Shown: piece by piece, positions 12,627-16,849 of the stretch
How the letters are laid out: each line of letters opens with the position of its first letter
Numbering within the stretch: position 1 is the first letter of the stretch
NCBI RefSeq assembly: GCF_034366625.1
Contig: NZ_JAXMIH010000008.1
Location: 496,001-560,000 of the forward strand
DNA length: 64,000 nucleotides
From: Prosthecobacter sp.
GTDB taxonomy: Bacteria; Verrucomicrobiota; Verrucomicrobiia; Verrucomicrobiales; Verrucomicrobiaceae
Direction: 5' to 3'
Notes under the pieces: model-generated
The model's input: the letters and a program-made list of their open reading frames with translations, nothing else
Databases searched by the model: none
What the model was told of the DNA's origin: nothing
Position numbers and translations under genes: made by a program

Positions 12627-13700
12627 TCAGGGCGCGGATGGTTTGTCCAAAATCAGGCAGCGGAACGAACGGCCCATGATGGCCGGGTGCGTGAGGGAGT
12701 TGAACTGGCGGATGAGGGCTGCGGTGGCTCTGTCGGGAACCTTGCCTTGCAGGCTCTCCATCCATGTCAGCCCCATGCGGCCCAGCACGCGGCCTTGGAG
12801 GTCGTATTCACGTTGTTTCATGCCGTGGCGGGTAGCTTCGTCGACCAGGCGAGTGAAATTGATGTGCGTGGTCAAATCGCATGCGCCGAGGTCTTCCAGC
12901 ACATGACCATCCATGTGATGCTGCCAGTAGCGGCGGATGGTGCCGCTGGCACGTGAGTCGGCAAAGAATTCCTCGGCGTCGAGGCCGTAGTCGGCAATGA
13001 AGATGGCCCCGCGAAACGCCGCGTGGGCCAGTTCACGGATCCACGTGAGCATGGCGAGATTGATTTCGAGTGTGTGGCCGGTTTCGAGATCGTGCGGCAG
13101 GTGTTTAGCCTCCTCGGCCAGTTCGTCGCAGGAAAAATCACCCGCGACGAAACGAAAGGCTTCGGTGCCGTCGGCTTCAACGAAAAGCTCGCGCCAGCGC
13201 TCGCCGTTCCAGCGCACGAGATGCACGGGAAAGGCGTCAGGCAGCTCGTTGCAGAGGAAAAAGGCATGCTTGGGGCCGGTTTGCAGCGCGGCGAGATTAT
13301 CCACCCACTGTACGCGGTCACCAAGGCGTTTGGTCTGCACTTCACGATACTTCGGATTCGGCTCCACGATGAGGTAGCGCATGGATTTGCCCTCAAGGGC
13401 ACTCAAAACGTCCTCGGCGAGCTGTCCGTCATGCGCGCCCTGCTCGATGATGGTGAAATTCTCTGGTTCGTCCTGCTCCTTCCATTCTTGAATCGCCCGC
13501 ATGGCCAGCAGCTTTCCAAACAGCGGACCCACACTCACGCTGGTAAAAAAATCGCCCTGTCGGCCGATTCGGCGTAGTCCGGCTCCATAATAGCCATGCT
13601 CAGGATGGTAGAGCGCCAGCTCCATGATCTGCACGAAGGGCAGCCTCCCGGCAGGCGTGGCGGCAAGCTGGGCGCGGAGAATCTGGGGCAGGGGAGACAT
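12627..13700 (-). CDS. SAM-dependent methyltransferase of the MidA/NDUFAF7 family
   Basis: 357 aa from the ATG at 13700 (MSPLPQILRAQL). A longer frame from 13844 would overlap the divergent PBP gene and is rejected. Family blocks are MELALYHPEHGYYG, QGDFFTSVSVGPLFGKLLA, the SAM-binding IIEQGAHDGQLAEDVL, and LCNELPDAFPVHLV. In mitochondria the homologue NDUFAF7 methylates an arginine of a complex I subunit. The bacterial target is unknown, though a protein arginine is plausible. The gene is divergent from the PBP gene with a 74-bp gap. Confidence 0.88.
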   Translation of the reverse strand: MSPLPQILRAQLAATPAGRLPFVQIMELALYHPEHGYYGAGLRRIGRQGDFFTSVSVGPLFGKLLAMRAIQEWKEQDEPENFTIIEQGAHDGQLAEDVLSALEGKSMRYLIVEPNPKYREVQTKRLGDRVQWVDNLAALQTGPKHAFFLCNELPDAFPVHLVRWNGERWRELFVEADGTEAFRFVAGDFSCDELAEEAKHLPHDLETGHTLEINLAMLTWIRELAHAAFRGAIFIADYGLDAEEFFADSRASGTIRRYWQHHMDGHVLEDLGACDLTTHINFTRLVDEATRHGMKQREYDLQGRVLGRMGLTWMESLQGKVPDRATAALIRQFNSLTHPAIMGRSFRCLILDKPSAP

Positions 13701-13774
13701 GCGGAGGACGGGAAAGAACTGGCGCGAAATGTGAAGGGCGGGTAGTTTGCCTGCCCAACTTCTTCCCCCCAGCC

Positions 13775-16288
13775 ATGTATCGAGATGATCCCGATCCCAA
13801 GCCCGAGCGCAACTGGCGCGGCGAAGCCGGCCTGAAACTGCCATTTTACCGTCGTGGCTGGTTCAGCGCGCTGGCGGCCTTTGCACTGCTCTGCGTGGTG
13901 GCCGCGTTTGGCGTGTACAGCGTGGTGGTGGCGCCGCTGCGGCGGGATGCGGAAAAATACGATCTCGAAGAGCTCAAGAAACTGGAGTCTGCCAGCATCA
14001 TCTTCGACCGCAATGGCGATGAAATGGCCCGCCTCTACGTGCTGAACCGCACCCCGGTGCCGATCACCGACGTGCCGCAGCATTTCATCGACGCGCTGGT
14101 GGCGCAGGAGGACTCGCGCTTCTTCAAGCACGACGGCGTCGATTACATCGGCCTCATGCGTGCGGTCTGGCTGAACTTTCAGGCCGGTGAGGTGACGCAG
14201 GGCGCGAGCACGGTCACGCAGCAGCTCGCGCGCCAGACCTTCAAGCTCCTGGAAAAGAGCTACAAGCGGAAGATCCTCGAAGCCTTCATCGCCCAGCGCG
14301 TTGAAAAGCACTTCTCGAAGCCGGAGATTCTGGAGCTTTACCTGAACCGCATCTTCTTCGGCGCGAACTTCTACGGCGTGCAGGCGGCGGCACGCGGTTA
14401 CTTTGGCAAGGACGTGAACGAGCTCACCATCGAGGAGTCGGCCACCATTGTCGGCCTGATCAAAAGTCCGAACAACATCCAGCCCGTCAAGCATCCGCAG
14501 CGTGCGCTCAAGGAGCGCAACTACGTGCTCGACCGCATGGTCAGCGAGGGCACGCTCACCGAGGAGGAGGCCGAGAAGCTCAAAAACAAGCCGCTCATCA
14601 CCGCCCCGCAGAGCACCGACCCGCGCCTGAGCTACGTCTTTGATGCTGTGCGGCGTGAGGTGGTGGACCTCGTCGGCGAGGACCGTGCCTCCATCGGCGG
14701 ATTCCGCATCTACACCAGCATCGACCAGGATCTGCAAAAATCCGCCGAGGACGCGATCAGCAAGCGCATGGCCGAGCTCGAAAAGCGCCAGGGCTACGAG
14801 CATCAGACCTTCGAGCAATTCCGCGCCATCATCTCCGACTACCGTGCGCGCCTGAAACGCGGTGAGATCGATCCCGCCACGCCGAAACCGATGCCGGAGT
14901 ATTTGCAGGCCGCAGCTTTGATGATCGACAACAAGGACGGCAGCATCCTCGCTATGGTAGGCGGGCGTGATTTCGGCGACAGCCAGTTTAACCGTGCCAC
15001 CGATGGCGTGCGCCCGGCAGGCACGGCCTTCACACCACTCGTTTATGCCGCCGCGTTCAGCAGCCCAGGCATCTATCCCGGCACGAAGGTGGAAGATGCG
15101 CCGCTGGACAACCGCCGCGTCATGATCGGTGGTTTGACCGGCATCTTGGGTGAATGGGGCGCGGAGGTGGACGATCCGAAGTGGTCGCAGGCGCCGATGA
15201 GTTCCCGTGAGGCGCTCGTGCATGGCCGCAACTCCGCCACCGTGCGCCTCGGCGAGCGTGTGGGCGTGCCGATGGTCAAGCAGGTGGCGCAGAAGGCCGG
15301 CATCACCTCCGAGATGCGCGATTATCCCTCCACCTTCCTCGGTTCGAGCGAGGCACGGTTGAGCGAGATGTGCCTGGCCTACTCCAATTTTCCCACGCTC
15401 GGCAGCCGCCCGCAGAAGCTGAACCTCATCCAGCGCATCACCGACAGCAACGAAAAGGCCGTCTTCCAGATCGCCGACTCCGCCTTGCAGAGTGTGCAGA
15501 GCATGGACCCCATCGCGGCGTATCAGACGCACACCTGCCTCGTTGATGCCCTGCATCGCGGCACCGGCAGCCCGGCGGTCACCGACTACAAGCTCGGTGA
15601 GTTCGTGGCCGGCGGCAAAACTGGCACGCACTACGAGTTCAAGGACCTCTGGTTCCTCGGCTACACCTCCCGCGTCACCTGCGGCGTGTGGGCCGGCTTT
15701 GACAAGCAGAAGACCATCTACCCTGGCGCTTTCTCCAACCGCATCGTGCTTCCCGTGTGGACGGACATGGTGAACGCCAGCGCCGCCCGCTACGTGCCGC
15801 AGGAAATCACCCCGCCGCAGACCGCTGAACGCGTCGAGATGTGCCAGCGCAGCAACCAGCGCGCCACCGATTACTGCTACGAGAAAATCAAAGGCCCCGA
15901 CGGCCGTGAAAAATCCCTGCGCGCCACCTACTTTGAGTACCTGCGCCCCGGCACACCGCTGGAGGGCTTCTGCAGCCAGCACACTGGCGAGGGCCTGCCG
16001 AAGGAGATGGAGCAGTTCCGCTACCAGATGCCCGTCGGCGGCATTGATTCCGCCCCGCTCATCGCGGACGCTGCCAAATGGGTTCACGTCGAGCCCGTGC
16101 GCATGAAGGCGCTCACCATCATCGGCGAGGATCCCTACAACGCCGAGCAGGCCGTCCCTCGCGCCAGCCCCGTGAACGACGACGGCACTCCGATCCGCAA
16201 AGCCATCCCTGTTGATGCCGTGGAAGCGGCTGATGACGGCCCCGTTCTCAAACTGGCTCCACCGCCGCCGATGAAGATTGATTTGTGA
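13775..16288 (+). CDS. class A penicillin-binding protein with degenerate transpeptidase motifs
   Basis: 837 aa. One N-terminal transmembrane helix (about residues 30-52) precedes a GT51 transglycosylase domain with catalytic Glu112 in QEDSRFFKHDGVD, then GASTVTQQLARQ and ELYLNRIFFG. The transpeptidase fold follows, but where class A PBPs have SxxK this protein has T417-A-F-T420 (RPAGTAFTPLVYAA), and SxN is G484-R-N (ALVHGRNSA). Only K615-T-G (GGKTGTHYE) is intact. Glycan polymerisation should work, while D,D-transpeptidation and beta-lactam acylation probably do not. The C-terminal Cys-containing segment (residues 690-740) is usual for PBP1. It is the only PBP in the window. Confidence 0.92.
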   Translation: MYRDDPDPKPERNWRGEAGLKLPFYRRGWFSALAAFALLCVVAAFGVYSVVVAPLRRDAEKYDLEELKKLESASIIFDRNGDEMARLYVLNRTPVPITDVPQHFIDALVAQEDSRFFKHDGVDYIGLMRAVWLNFQAGEVTQGASTVTQQLARQTFKLLEKSYKRKILEAFIAQRVEKHFSKPEILELYLNRIFFGANFYGVQAAARGYFGKDVNELTIEESATIVGLIKSPNNIQPVKHPQRALKERNYVLDRMVSEGTLTEEEAEKLKNKPLITAPQSTDPRLSYVFDAVRREVVDLVGEDRASIGGFRIYTSIDQDLQKSAEDAISKRMAELEKRQGYEHQTFEQFRAIISDYRARLKRGEIDPATPKPMPEYLQAAALMIDNKDGSILAMVGGRDFGDSQFNRATDGVRPAGTAFTPLVYAAAFSSPGIYPGTKVEDAPLDNRRVMIGGLTGILGEWGAEVDDPKWSQAPMSSREALVHGRNSATVRLGERVGVPMVKQVAQKAGITSEMRDYPSTFLGSSEARLSEMCLAYSNFPTLGSRPQKLNLIQRITDSNEKAVFQIADSALQSVQSMDPIAAYQTHTCLVDALHRGTGSPAVTDYKLGEFVAGGKTGTHYEFKDLWFLGYTSRVTCGVWAGFDKQKTIYPGAFSNRIVLPVWTDMVNASAARYVPQEITPPQTAERVEMCQRSNQRATDYCYEKIKGPDGREKSLRATYFEYLRPGTPLEGFCSQHTGEGLPKEMEQFRYQMPVGGIDSAPLIADAAKWVHVEPVRMKALTIIGEDPYNAEQAVPRASPVNDDGTPIRKAIPVDAVEAADDGPVLKLAPPPPMKIDL

Positions 16289-16306: not shown

Positions 16307-16849
16307 ATGTCCAACTCAAGCATAGCCGTCTATCCAAAGACCACAGCGCAGGATGTCGTTGGACGGTTGACACAGATCAATCCTGATTGGAGGCTGTCGG
16401 TGAATGCTCGCAAGTTTGACTATGACGCGGACATTTTGATAGCCAGCCACGCTCATTCGGTGGCAGTCTGGGCCAGTGGCAACGCACGTGGGCAAGATCA
16501 TGAGTTGCAAACCGAAATTGGACGCCATTCAAGTCATCCTTGGCTGAGGATTCTCTTCCAGGACCATGTGGCCTGGGAATATCTTCTCTATCAAAACGGC
16601 TTGGTGATTGATCGCTTCATGCCACTGCCGTCCATGTGGGGGCTGGACAAGCCCGAGTTAGGCCAGCCTTCGTTGCTGGCCAGCATCTGGGGCGTGCCTG
16701 AGAAGACGATTTCCAAATACCTGCGGGAATGGAATGCCAAGACACGCGGTCGCAAAGCATTTTGGTGGCGGGATCAATGGAAATTTGGCCAGTTTGAACA
16801 AGGCTTCGATTTTTTGAGGGCACTGACAGGCATCGAGTTTCCTTCTTGA
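16307..16849 (+). CDS. hypothetical protein, 180 aa
   Basis: An ATG 16 bp after the PBP stop opens a 180-aa protein with no signal peptide and no membrane helix. It is rich in Trp, with VAVWASGNARG, PWLRILFQDHVAWEYLLYQN and WNAKTRGRKAFWWRDQWKFG. I do not recognise a family. Base composition is less GC-rich than that of its neighbours, suggesting transfer. A segment LASIWGVPEKTISKYLREW hints at a helical region. Proteins of this size and composition include contact-toxin immunity proteins, but no toxin gene is nearby, so this is only a thought. Confidence 0.65.
   Translation: MSNSSIAVYPKTTAQDVVGRLTQINPDWRLSVNARKFDYDADILIASHAHSVAVWASGNARGQDHELQTEIGRHSSHPWLRILFQDHVAWEYLLYQNGLVIDRFMPLPSMWGLDKPELGQPSLLASIWGVPEKTISKYLREWNAKTRGRKAFWWRDQWKFGQFEQGFDFLRALTGIEFPS

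Follow-up and report, generated by a model that had tools for sequence, protein, structure and literature searches.

A natural class A penicillin-binding protein family of Prosthecobacter and its relatives with a retained transpeptidase module that is mostly degenerate in its catalytic motifs

Class A penicillin-binding proteins (PBPs) are the textbook bifunctional targets of beta-lactams, and engineered variants with a dead transpeptidase (TP) have been used to ask whether both reactions need one protein. A gene of Prosthecobacter sp. raises this question in a natural setting. Its product was predicted from the sequence to be a class A PBP with an intact glycosyltransferase (GT) half and two of the three TP motifs destroyed. 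What does such a protein do, and is its TP module a relic or a part that is still in use?

The window, i.e., the whole analysed stretch of 64,000 nucleotides (contig NZ_JAXMIH010000008.1, positions 496,001 to 560,000 of the forward strand), carries the gene as an open frame of 837 amino acids with an ATG at 13775, a stop codon ending at 16288 and no internal stops. A long antisense frame (13535-16087) is also open and is taken for a by-product of base composition. The gene is organized as follows.

13775..16288, + strand: TP-degenerate class A PBP gene, 837 aa (open frame; Pfam Transgly and Transpeptidase matches; AlphaFold2 mean pLDDT 84.2)
13856..13954, + strand: N-terminal helix, residues 28-60 (secondary structure of the AlphaFold2 model)
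14021..14539, + strand: GT51 glycosyltransferase domain, residues 83-255 (Pfam PF00912, 209.2 bits)
14108..14110, + strand: Glu112, catalytic Glu of the GT domain (invariant in alignment A2; 140/141 subfamily A rows)
14912..15670, + strand: TP-fold domain, matched residues 380-632 (Pfam PF00905, 30.2 bits; pLDDT; Foldseek)
15023..15034, + strand: degenerate SxxK, T417-A-F-T420 (alignments; conservation)
15140..15166, + strand: clade-specific loop G456-I-L-G-E-W-G-A-E464 (53 clade rows against 36 intact rows)
15224..15232, + strand: SxN position, G484-R-N486 (alignments; genus copies)
15617..15625, + strand: retained KTG, K615-T616-G617 (alignments; Lys615 in 139/141 distinct subfamily A rows)

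The N-terminal helix is presumed to be a membrane anchor by analogy with the class A PBP architecture. In alignments with PBPs of known structure and with intact paralogues, SxxK is represented by T417-A-F-T420 and SxN by G484-R-N486, where the Ser is gone and the Asn is present. K615-T-G617 occupies the KTG position, Glu112 lies within the ED-x-R-F-F motif of the GT domain, and these alignments offer no alternative SxxK elsewhere in the TP domain. All residue calls and the numbering of the original prediction are thus correct. Misreading of an ordinary class A PBP is ruled out, as the intact paralogues in the same alignment land cleanly on S..K. Of the hallmarks of a bifunctional class A PBP, the protein possesses GT51 with its Glu, the TP fold and KTG, and lacks both the nucleophile and base of SxxK and a complete SxN.

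In three family profile models the protein falls below the curated cut-off. Its Transpeptidase match (PF00905) of 30.2 bits exceeds the Pfam cut-off of 22.1, compared to 94.1 bits for the intact paralogue L005. For the PBP1A family (NCBIfam TIGR02074) it scores 474 bits against a cut-off of 508.75, with L005 above this value (518.7) and L045, a clade member that carries S..K, below it (498.2). The scores for PBP1C (TIGR02073; 307.2 bits, cut-off 494.2) and for the monofunctional GTs (TIGR02070; 123.5 bits, cut-off 182.65), which lack the TP fold present here, are lower than required as well. For annotation this means that profile models score TP-degenerate proteins near bifunctional synthases.

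An orthologue is present in all 35 genus genomes searched, its own included, three of which contain fragments (G020, G021 and G034) that were left out of the motif counts. In the remaining 32 copies, position 417 is always Thr, position 420 is occupied by Thr (23 copies) or Ile (nine copies), and Asn486 and Lys615 are invariant. Position 484 is Ser in 12 copies and Gly in 20, so the damage to SxN is milder in the genus at large than in the window copy. Thr417 is encoded by four codons (ACC 11, ACG 10, ACA 9, ACT 2). Each of them could become a Ser codon by a single base change, yet none of the 32 copies has Ser417. This turnover of codons under a constant Thr indicates that the site looks selected to be Thr rather than merely freed from constraint.

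The TP domain as a whole is kept by purifying selection. Four parts of the protein were compared by their median dN/dS in 31 sequences from the genus. Constraint is strongest in the GT domain (0.097), followed by the TP domain (0.15) and the linker (0.179), and weakest in the C-terminal part (0.285). The ratio of TP to GT divergence has the same median, 1.17, in the window family and in the intact paralogue (231 pairs from the 22 genomes holding both genes). Since the TP domain is constrained relative to the GT domain to the same degree as in an active paralogue, the terms repurposed or retained fit better than vestigial. The original prediction had named vestigial and repurposed as two options for the TP fold of a glycan polymerase, a reading that is supported as far as sequence goes. 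The frame is open over its 837 codons, relatives share its state and its TP domain is under selection, in agreement with the earlier view that this is not decay. Recent decay, a sequencing error or a misassembly has a negligible chance of accounting for a state found in 32/32 genus copies, in other families and outside the order under purifying selection, and an artefact of this isolate is likewise excluded by Thr417 in every genus copy read.

Beyond the genus, the gene is present in the six families of the order that were sampled, with strong matches in ten further families outside the order but within the same class. Across the class, 47 of 141 genomes have a strong match, hence the gene is not universal. 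In a phylum sample of 144 genomes, only weak matches come from beyond the class (best E 1e-54), and the ten loci read from there (L246-L255) all carry S..K, SLN and KTG. The family is kept across many genera, including records labelled Akkermansia. One of these, L110 (CAMAZK010000065.1, titled Akkermansia muciniphila), shares 81% identity with the window protein, against about 36% for the other loci titled Akkermansia (L115, L116), and the title of L110 looks wrong. A short degenerate DNA pattern matched 385 of 386 genomes, and controls matched equally often.

In a quick tree of 105 class A PBP sequences, calculated with the motif columns masked, the window protein belongs to a clade of 56 rows with an SH-aLRT support of 99. 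Within this clade Ser417 occurs in three rows, Lys420 in seven, Ser484 in 36, Asn486 in 33 and Lys615 in 52. Among the 49 rows beyond the clade, 45 have S..K; the other four, from genomes of family f2 (apparently the Akkermansia family), make up another degenerate group. The branching inside the clade is not firm, because 31 of the 102 inner branches of the tree are open forks. The f2 loci L256-L261 encode a degenerate class A PBP-like protein of 585-618 amino acids with GxxFEP (L259-L261) or LFTP (L256-L258) and without SxN in the alignment. At L259:4330-6051 and L260:4243-5949 this protein comes after an intact class A PBP.

After a search of 21 more genomes, the subfamily of the window protein, here called subfamily A, comprises 142 distinct sequences. 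Position 417 is Thr in 137 of them and Ser in five, and Lys420 is absent in 122. Neither Ser nor Lys is found in 121 sequences, the minority being T..K (16), S..K (four) and Ser without Lys (one). SxN is variable. Of the 141 rows with a residue at the respective site, 139 have Lys615 and 140 have Glu112. The original prediction had made its conclusion on cross-linking depend on conservation in relatives, a conservation that is borne out for most subfamily A rows, except for the minority with T..K or S..K. One clade member, L053, lacks Glu112; it is a 1011-residue frame and the second clade member in its genome (G028), which is listed with 8% contamination.

The four S..K rows (L045, L284, L285 and L286) come from genus g12, in all four genomes examined. 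These copies combine SAFK, SKN and KTG within an otherwise Thr-type clade. Judged by sequence, some subfamily A members, namely those with T..K and the S..K copies of g12, may therefore be active. In a two-state model on the quick tree, loss without regain is disfavoured both for Ser417 (LRT 19.9) and for Lys420 (LRT 7.4). This hints that g12 regained its S..K motif, on a tree with weak forks. Gene conversion from an active paralogue appears unlikely by eye as the source of the motif in g12, since the copies keep R-x-P/R-P-A-G and the clade loop.

This loop is specific to the clade and nearly invariant there. Across the 53 clade rows compared, G456 and G459 never vary, and E460, G462 and E464 occur in 52 rows each. 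The same stretch in 36 intact class A PBPs reads W-x-P-x-N, with Pro463 in 35 and Asn465 in all 36. The length of the surrounding stretch 436-479 differs as well, with at least 41 residues in 157 of 159 family rows and at most 40 in intact rows (among the commonest lengths). The S..K copies of genus g12 carry the loop too, so it is a mark of the clade rather than of inactivity.

The PBP transpeptidase fold is predicted to be kept despite these changes. AlphaFold2, run with a 65-row alignment, produced a model with a mean pLDDT of 84.2; averaged in blocks of ten residues, pLDDT is 82-98 throughout residues 381-670. The best Foldseek matches of this model are class A PBPs (E 3e-40), and a Listeria monocytogenes PBP4 chain gives a target-normalised TM-score of 0.75. 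The whole-protein rmsd to the matches is large (about 6-15 A), as expected if the domains are set differently.

The genome of the window also encodes a sister protein from the same clade. In this subfamily B, the copy from the same genome has TAFL and GRT, with FGG replacing KTG. Its gene follows that of a class B PBP:

L322:6518-8467, same genome, contig C19: class B PBP
L322:8474-10474, same genome, contig C19: subfamily B protein

The gap between both genes is six bases. The subfamily B gene is on the same strand and downstream of a class B PBP in 10/10 loci with room (L322, L323, L324, L325, L326, L275, L190, L297, L312 and L315), loci that were chosen for holding subfamily B; L313, cut by a contig end, was left out. 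Elsewhere the gap is estimated at about 10-110 bases (L325 about 50), with about 410 in L297. In all eight cases read, the class B PBP has S-x-x-K, S-[CS]-N and KTG. No SEDS gene was seen beside the pair in the two loci annotated. Subfamily B is patchy, with a near full-length copy in six of 13 genus genomes, and Lys615 is lost in three of six rows. At L315 (genome G012) the gene is in two pieces with a TGA inside, due to decay or sequencing error. The pairing with a class B PBP is circumstantial, and we consider it the best evidence of this kind for a mechanism in which another enzyme would provide the cross-links, as a class B PBP competent in transpeptidation stands beside a glycosyltransferase whose own TP is dead by sequence.

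No cross-linking enzyme lies beside the window gene itself, where the conserved neighbour is a methyltransferase:

12627..13844, - strand: Methyltransf_28 family gene, divergent neighbour and synteny marker (Pfam PF02636, 176.7 bits)

We take this neighbour to be MidA/NDUFAF7-like. Its listed frame overlaps the PBP start, hence its true start is probably near 13700. Of the 128 relatives' rows with enough room, 88 show this neighbour; among the 40 others are rows from Akkermansia-type genomes, from families beyond the order and from the sister subfamily, as well as three copies of the same genus. Downstream, an ORF of 180 amino acids (16307-16849, + strand) matches no Pfam or NCBIfam model and is absent from all relatives' loci examined; it occurs only in loci of its own genome. 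A second ORF (at 16846, + strand) has no Pfam match, is matched in 13 relatives' loci and looks like the complement of an opposite-strand gene. A dedicated downstream partner was therefore rejected.

Cross-linking enzymes are encoded elsewhere in the genome. It contains five Transgly domains, i.e., in the window protein, its sister on contig C19, a PBP1a-type protein and two PBP1C-type proteins. The PBP1a-type paralogue L005 is intact (STVK/SRN/KTG, 518.7 bits), both PBP1C-type proteins are above the cut-off and carry S..K and KTG, and so do all four class B PBPs in their motifs. Another 20 matches above cut-off are to YkuD (L,D-transpeptidase), a large set relative to model organisms. Intact PBPs and these YkuD proteins together represent ample capacity for cross-linking in trans. 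The earlier claim that cross-linking must rely on other PBPs is too narrow in view of the YkuD proteins. Across the class, 47 genomes with the family (E <= 1e-230, alignment A1) were compared to 94 without, family f18 being split in two. The medians of family medians are 9.5 YkuD matches with and 2.0 without, a link that is suggestive only and confounded by phylogeny. Families that have another class A PBP and lack this one also possess several (f20: 7 and 6; f34: 5, 4 and 12), and f12 genomes, with neither this family nor another class A PBP, have 6-8.

Based on these data, we propose that the window protein is a lipid II glycosyltransferase with a retained, non-catalytic TP module, and that cross-links are made in trans, a reading that we regard as probable. 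As a descendant of class A PBPs, it would polymerise lipid II through a membrane-anchored GT51 domain. Its TP module would be unable to form an acyl-enzyme, lacking both the nucleophilic Ser and the Lys base, but would stay folded and selected, most likely to support or control the GT domain and to serve as a docking site for a partner. Intact PBPs and/or L,D-transpeptidases would then introduce the cross-links in its glycan. Such a protein is predicted to be insensitive to beta-lactams, so that these bacteria may build part of their wall with a polymerase beyond the reach of penicillin. Several observations fit this model less well. KTG is better kept than a plain scaffold would seem to need, and T..K rows, the S..K motif of g12, L053 without Glu112 and the patchy subfamily B deviate from it. 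Moreover, neighbouring organisms without the gene also manage, so a need for it does not follow.

In a special case of this model, rather than an exclusive alternative to it, the TP-like module would act as a non-covalent sensor. The KTG pocket would bind stem peptides and switch the GT domain on and off. The loss of SxxK next to a conserved KTG and Thr618, and the rebuilt and fixed loop, are in line with this idea. Nevertheless, folding alone may account for the conservation of KTG, which is part of a core strand, and subfamily B lacks Lys615 in half of its six rows yet keeps the loop residues that were used to select it. We therefore judge a sensor to be possible but unlikely.

A larger departure would be that both halves are non-enzymatic and that the protein serves other PBPs as a scaffold or regulator. 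In its favour are the intact PBP1a-type paralogue in the same genome and L053, a clade member that has lost Glu112. The low dN/dS of the GT domain and the presence of Glu112 in all subfamily A rows but one speak against it, making this explanation improbable. Slightly more doubtful still is an enzyme with another chemistry, in which Thr417 would serve as nucleophile, activated by Lys615 and/or Glu460/Glu464. The constancy of Thr417 in the genus, through four codons, and in nearly all of subfamily A would suit such a role, as would that of Lys615 and of the two Glu residues (52 of 53 clade rows each). On the other hand, Lys420 is gone in 122 of 142 rows, SxN varies, and no precedent was present among the literature matches listed.

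Extending the preferred reading of a glycosyltransferase with cross-links made in trans to the entire clade leads to a more tentative picture, which we put forward as a possibility with the odds against it. An order of Verrucomicrobia, together with relatives in its class, would have divided the two class A PBP reactions among separate proteins. In an old class A PBP lineage, the TP module would have become non-catalytic, Ser-excluding and selected, with a new loop. Branch B would be tied genetically to an intact class B PBP, as a GT and TP pair with no SEDS gene beside it in the two loci annotated, the branch of the window protein would use distant PBPs or L,D-transpeptidases, and one genus would have regained its Ser-Lys pair.

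With a natural family whose members are for the most part TP-dead by sequence, the coupling of both reactions becomes a question that can be tested in living bacteria. It bears on wall cross-linking in these organisms and on which of their wall enzymes are hit by penicillins. Glycine at position 4 of the stem peptide is a usual exchange product of L,D-transpeptidases. According to a study on Verrucomicrobium spinosum, its peptidoglycan contains tri-tetra and tetra-tetra dimers and a glycine-containing tetrapeptide; the species is genetically tractable, with published transposon-sequencing data (PMC12283558).

Among known systems, the closest in sequence and fold are the class A PBPs, in particular those of the PBP1a type (structures from Acinetobacter baumannii, Pseudomonas aeruginosa and E. 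coli; TIGR02074), with GT51, the TP fold and KTG in common. In contrast to these, the window protein has neither SxxK nor the Ser of SxN, and GxLGEWGxE replaces W-x-P-x-N. With the monofunctional glycosyltransferases (TIGR02070) it shares the predicted activity, GT51 polymerisation without transpeptidation, but it has in addition an entire TP-fold module under selection and an extended C-terminus. Among the literature matches listed (open-access, without supplements), no title or beginning of an abstract names a naturally TP-degenerate class A PBP family. For C. difficile PBP1, a TPase mutant is described in one report, together with the dispensability of FtsI catalysis in B. subtilis and S. 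aureus (PMC12154710). These cases resemble the window protein in that a PBP transpeptidase module has a role separable from catalysis, although the proteins are described there as naturally having transpeptidase activity. A direct parallel is E. coli with the L,D-transpeptidase YcbB as the cross-linking enzyme, where PBP1b is needed for its GT activity and not for its transpeptidase, inactivated by S510A (PMC5089857). There, as predicted here, a class A PBP with an active GT and a dead TP is combined with cross-linking by another enzyme; what is a laboratory mutant in E. coli would in these bacteria be a natural and old state.
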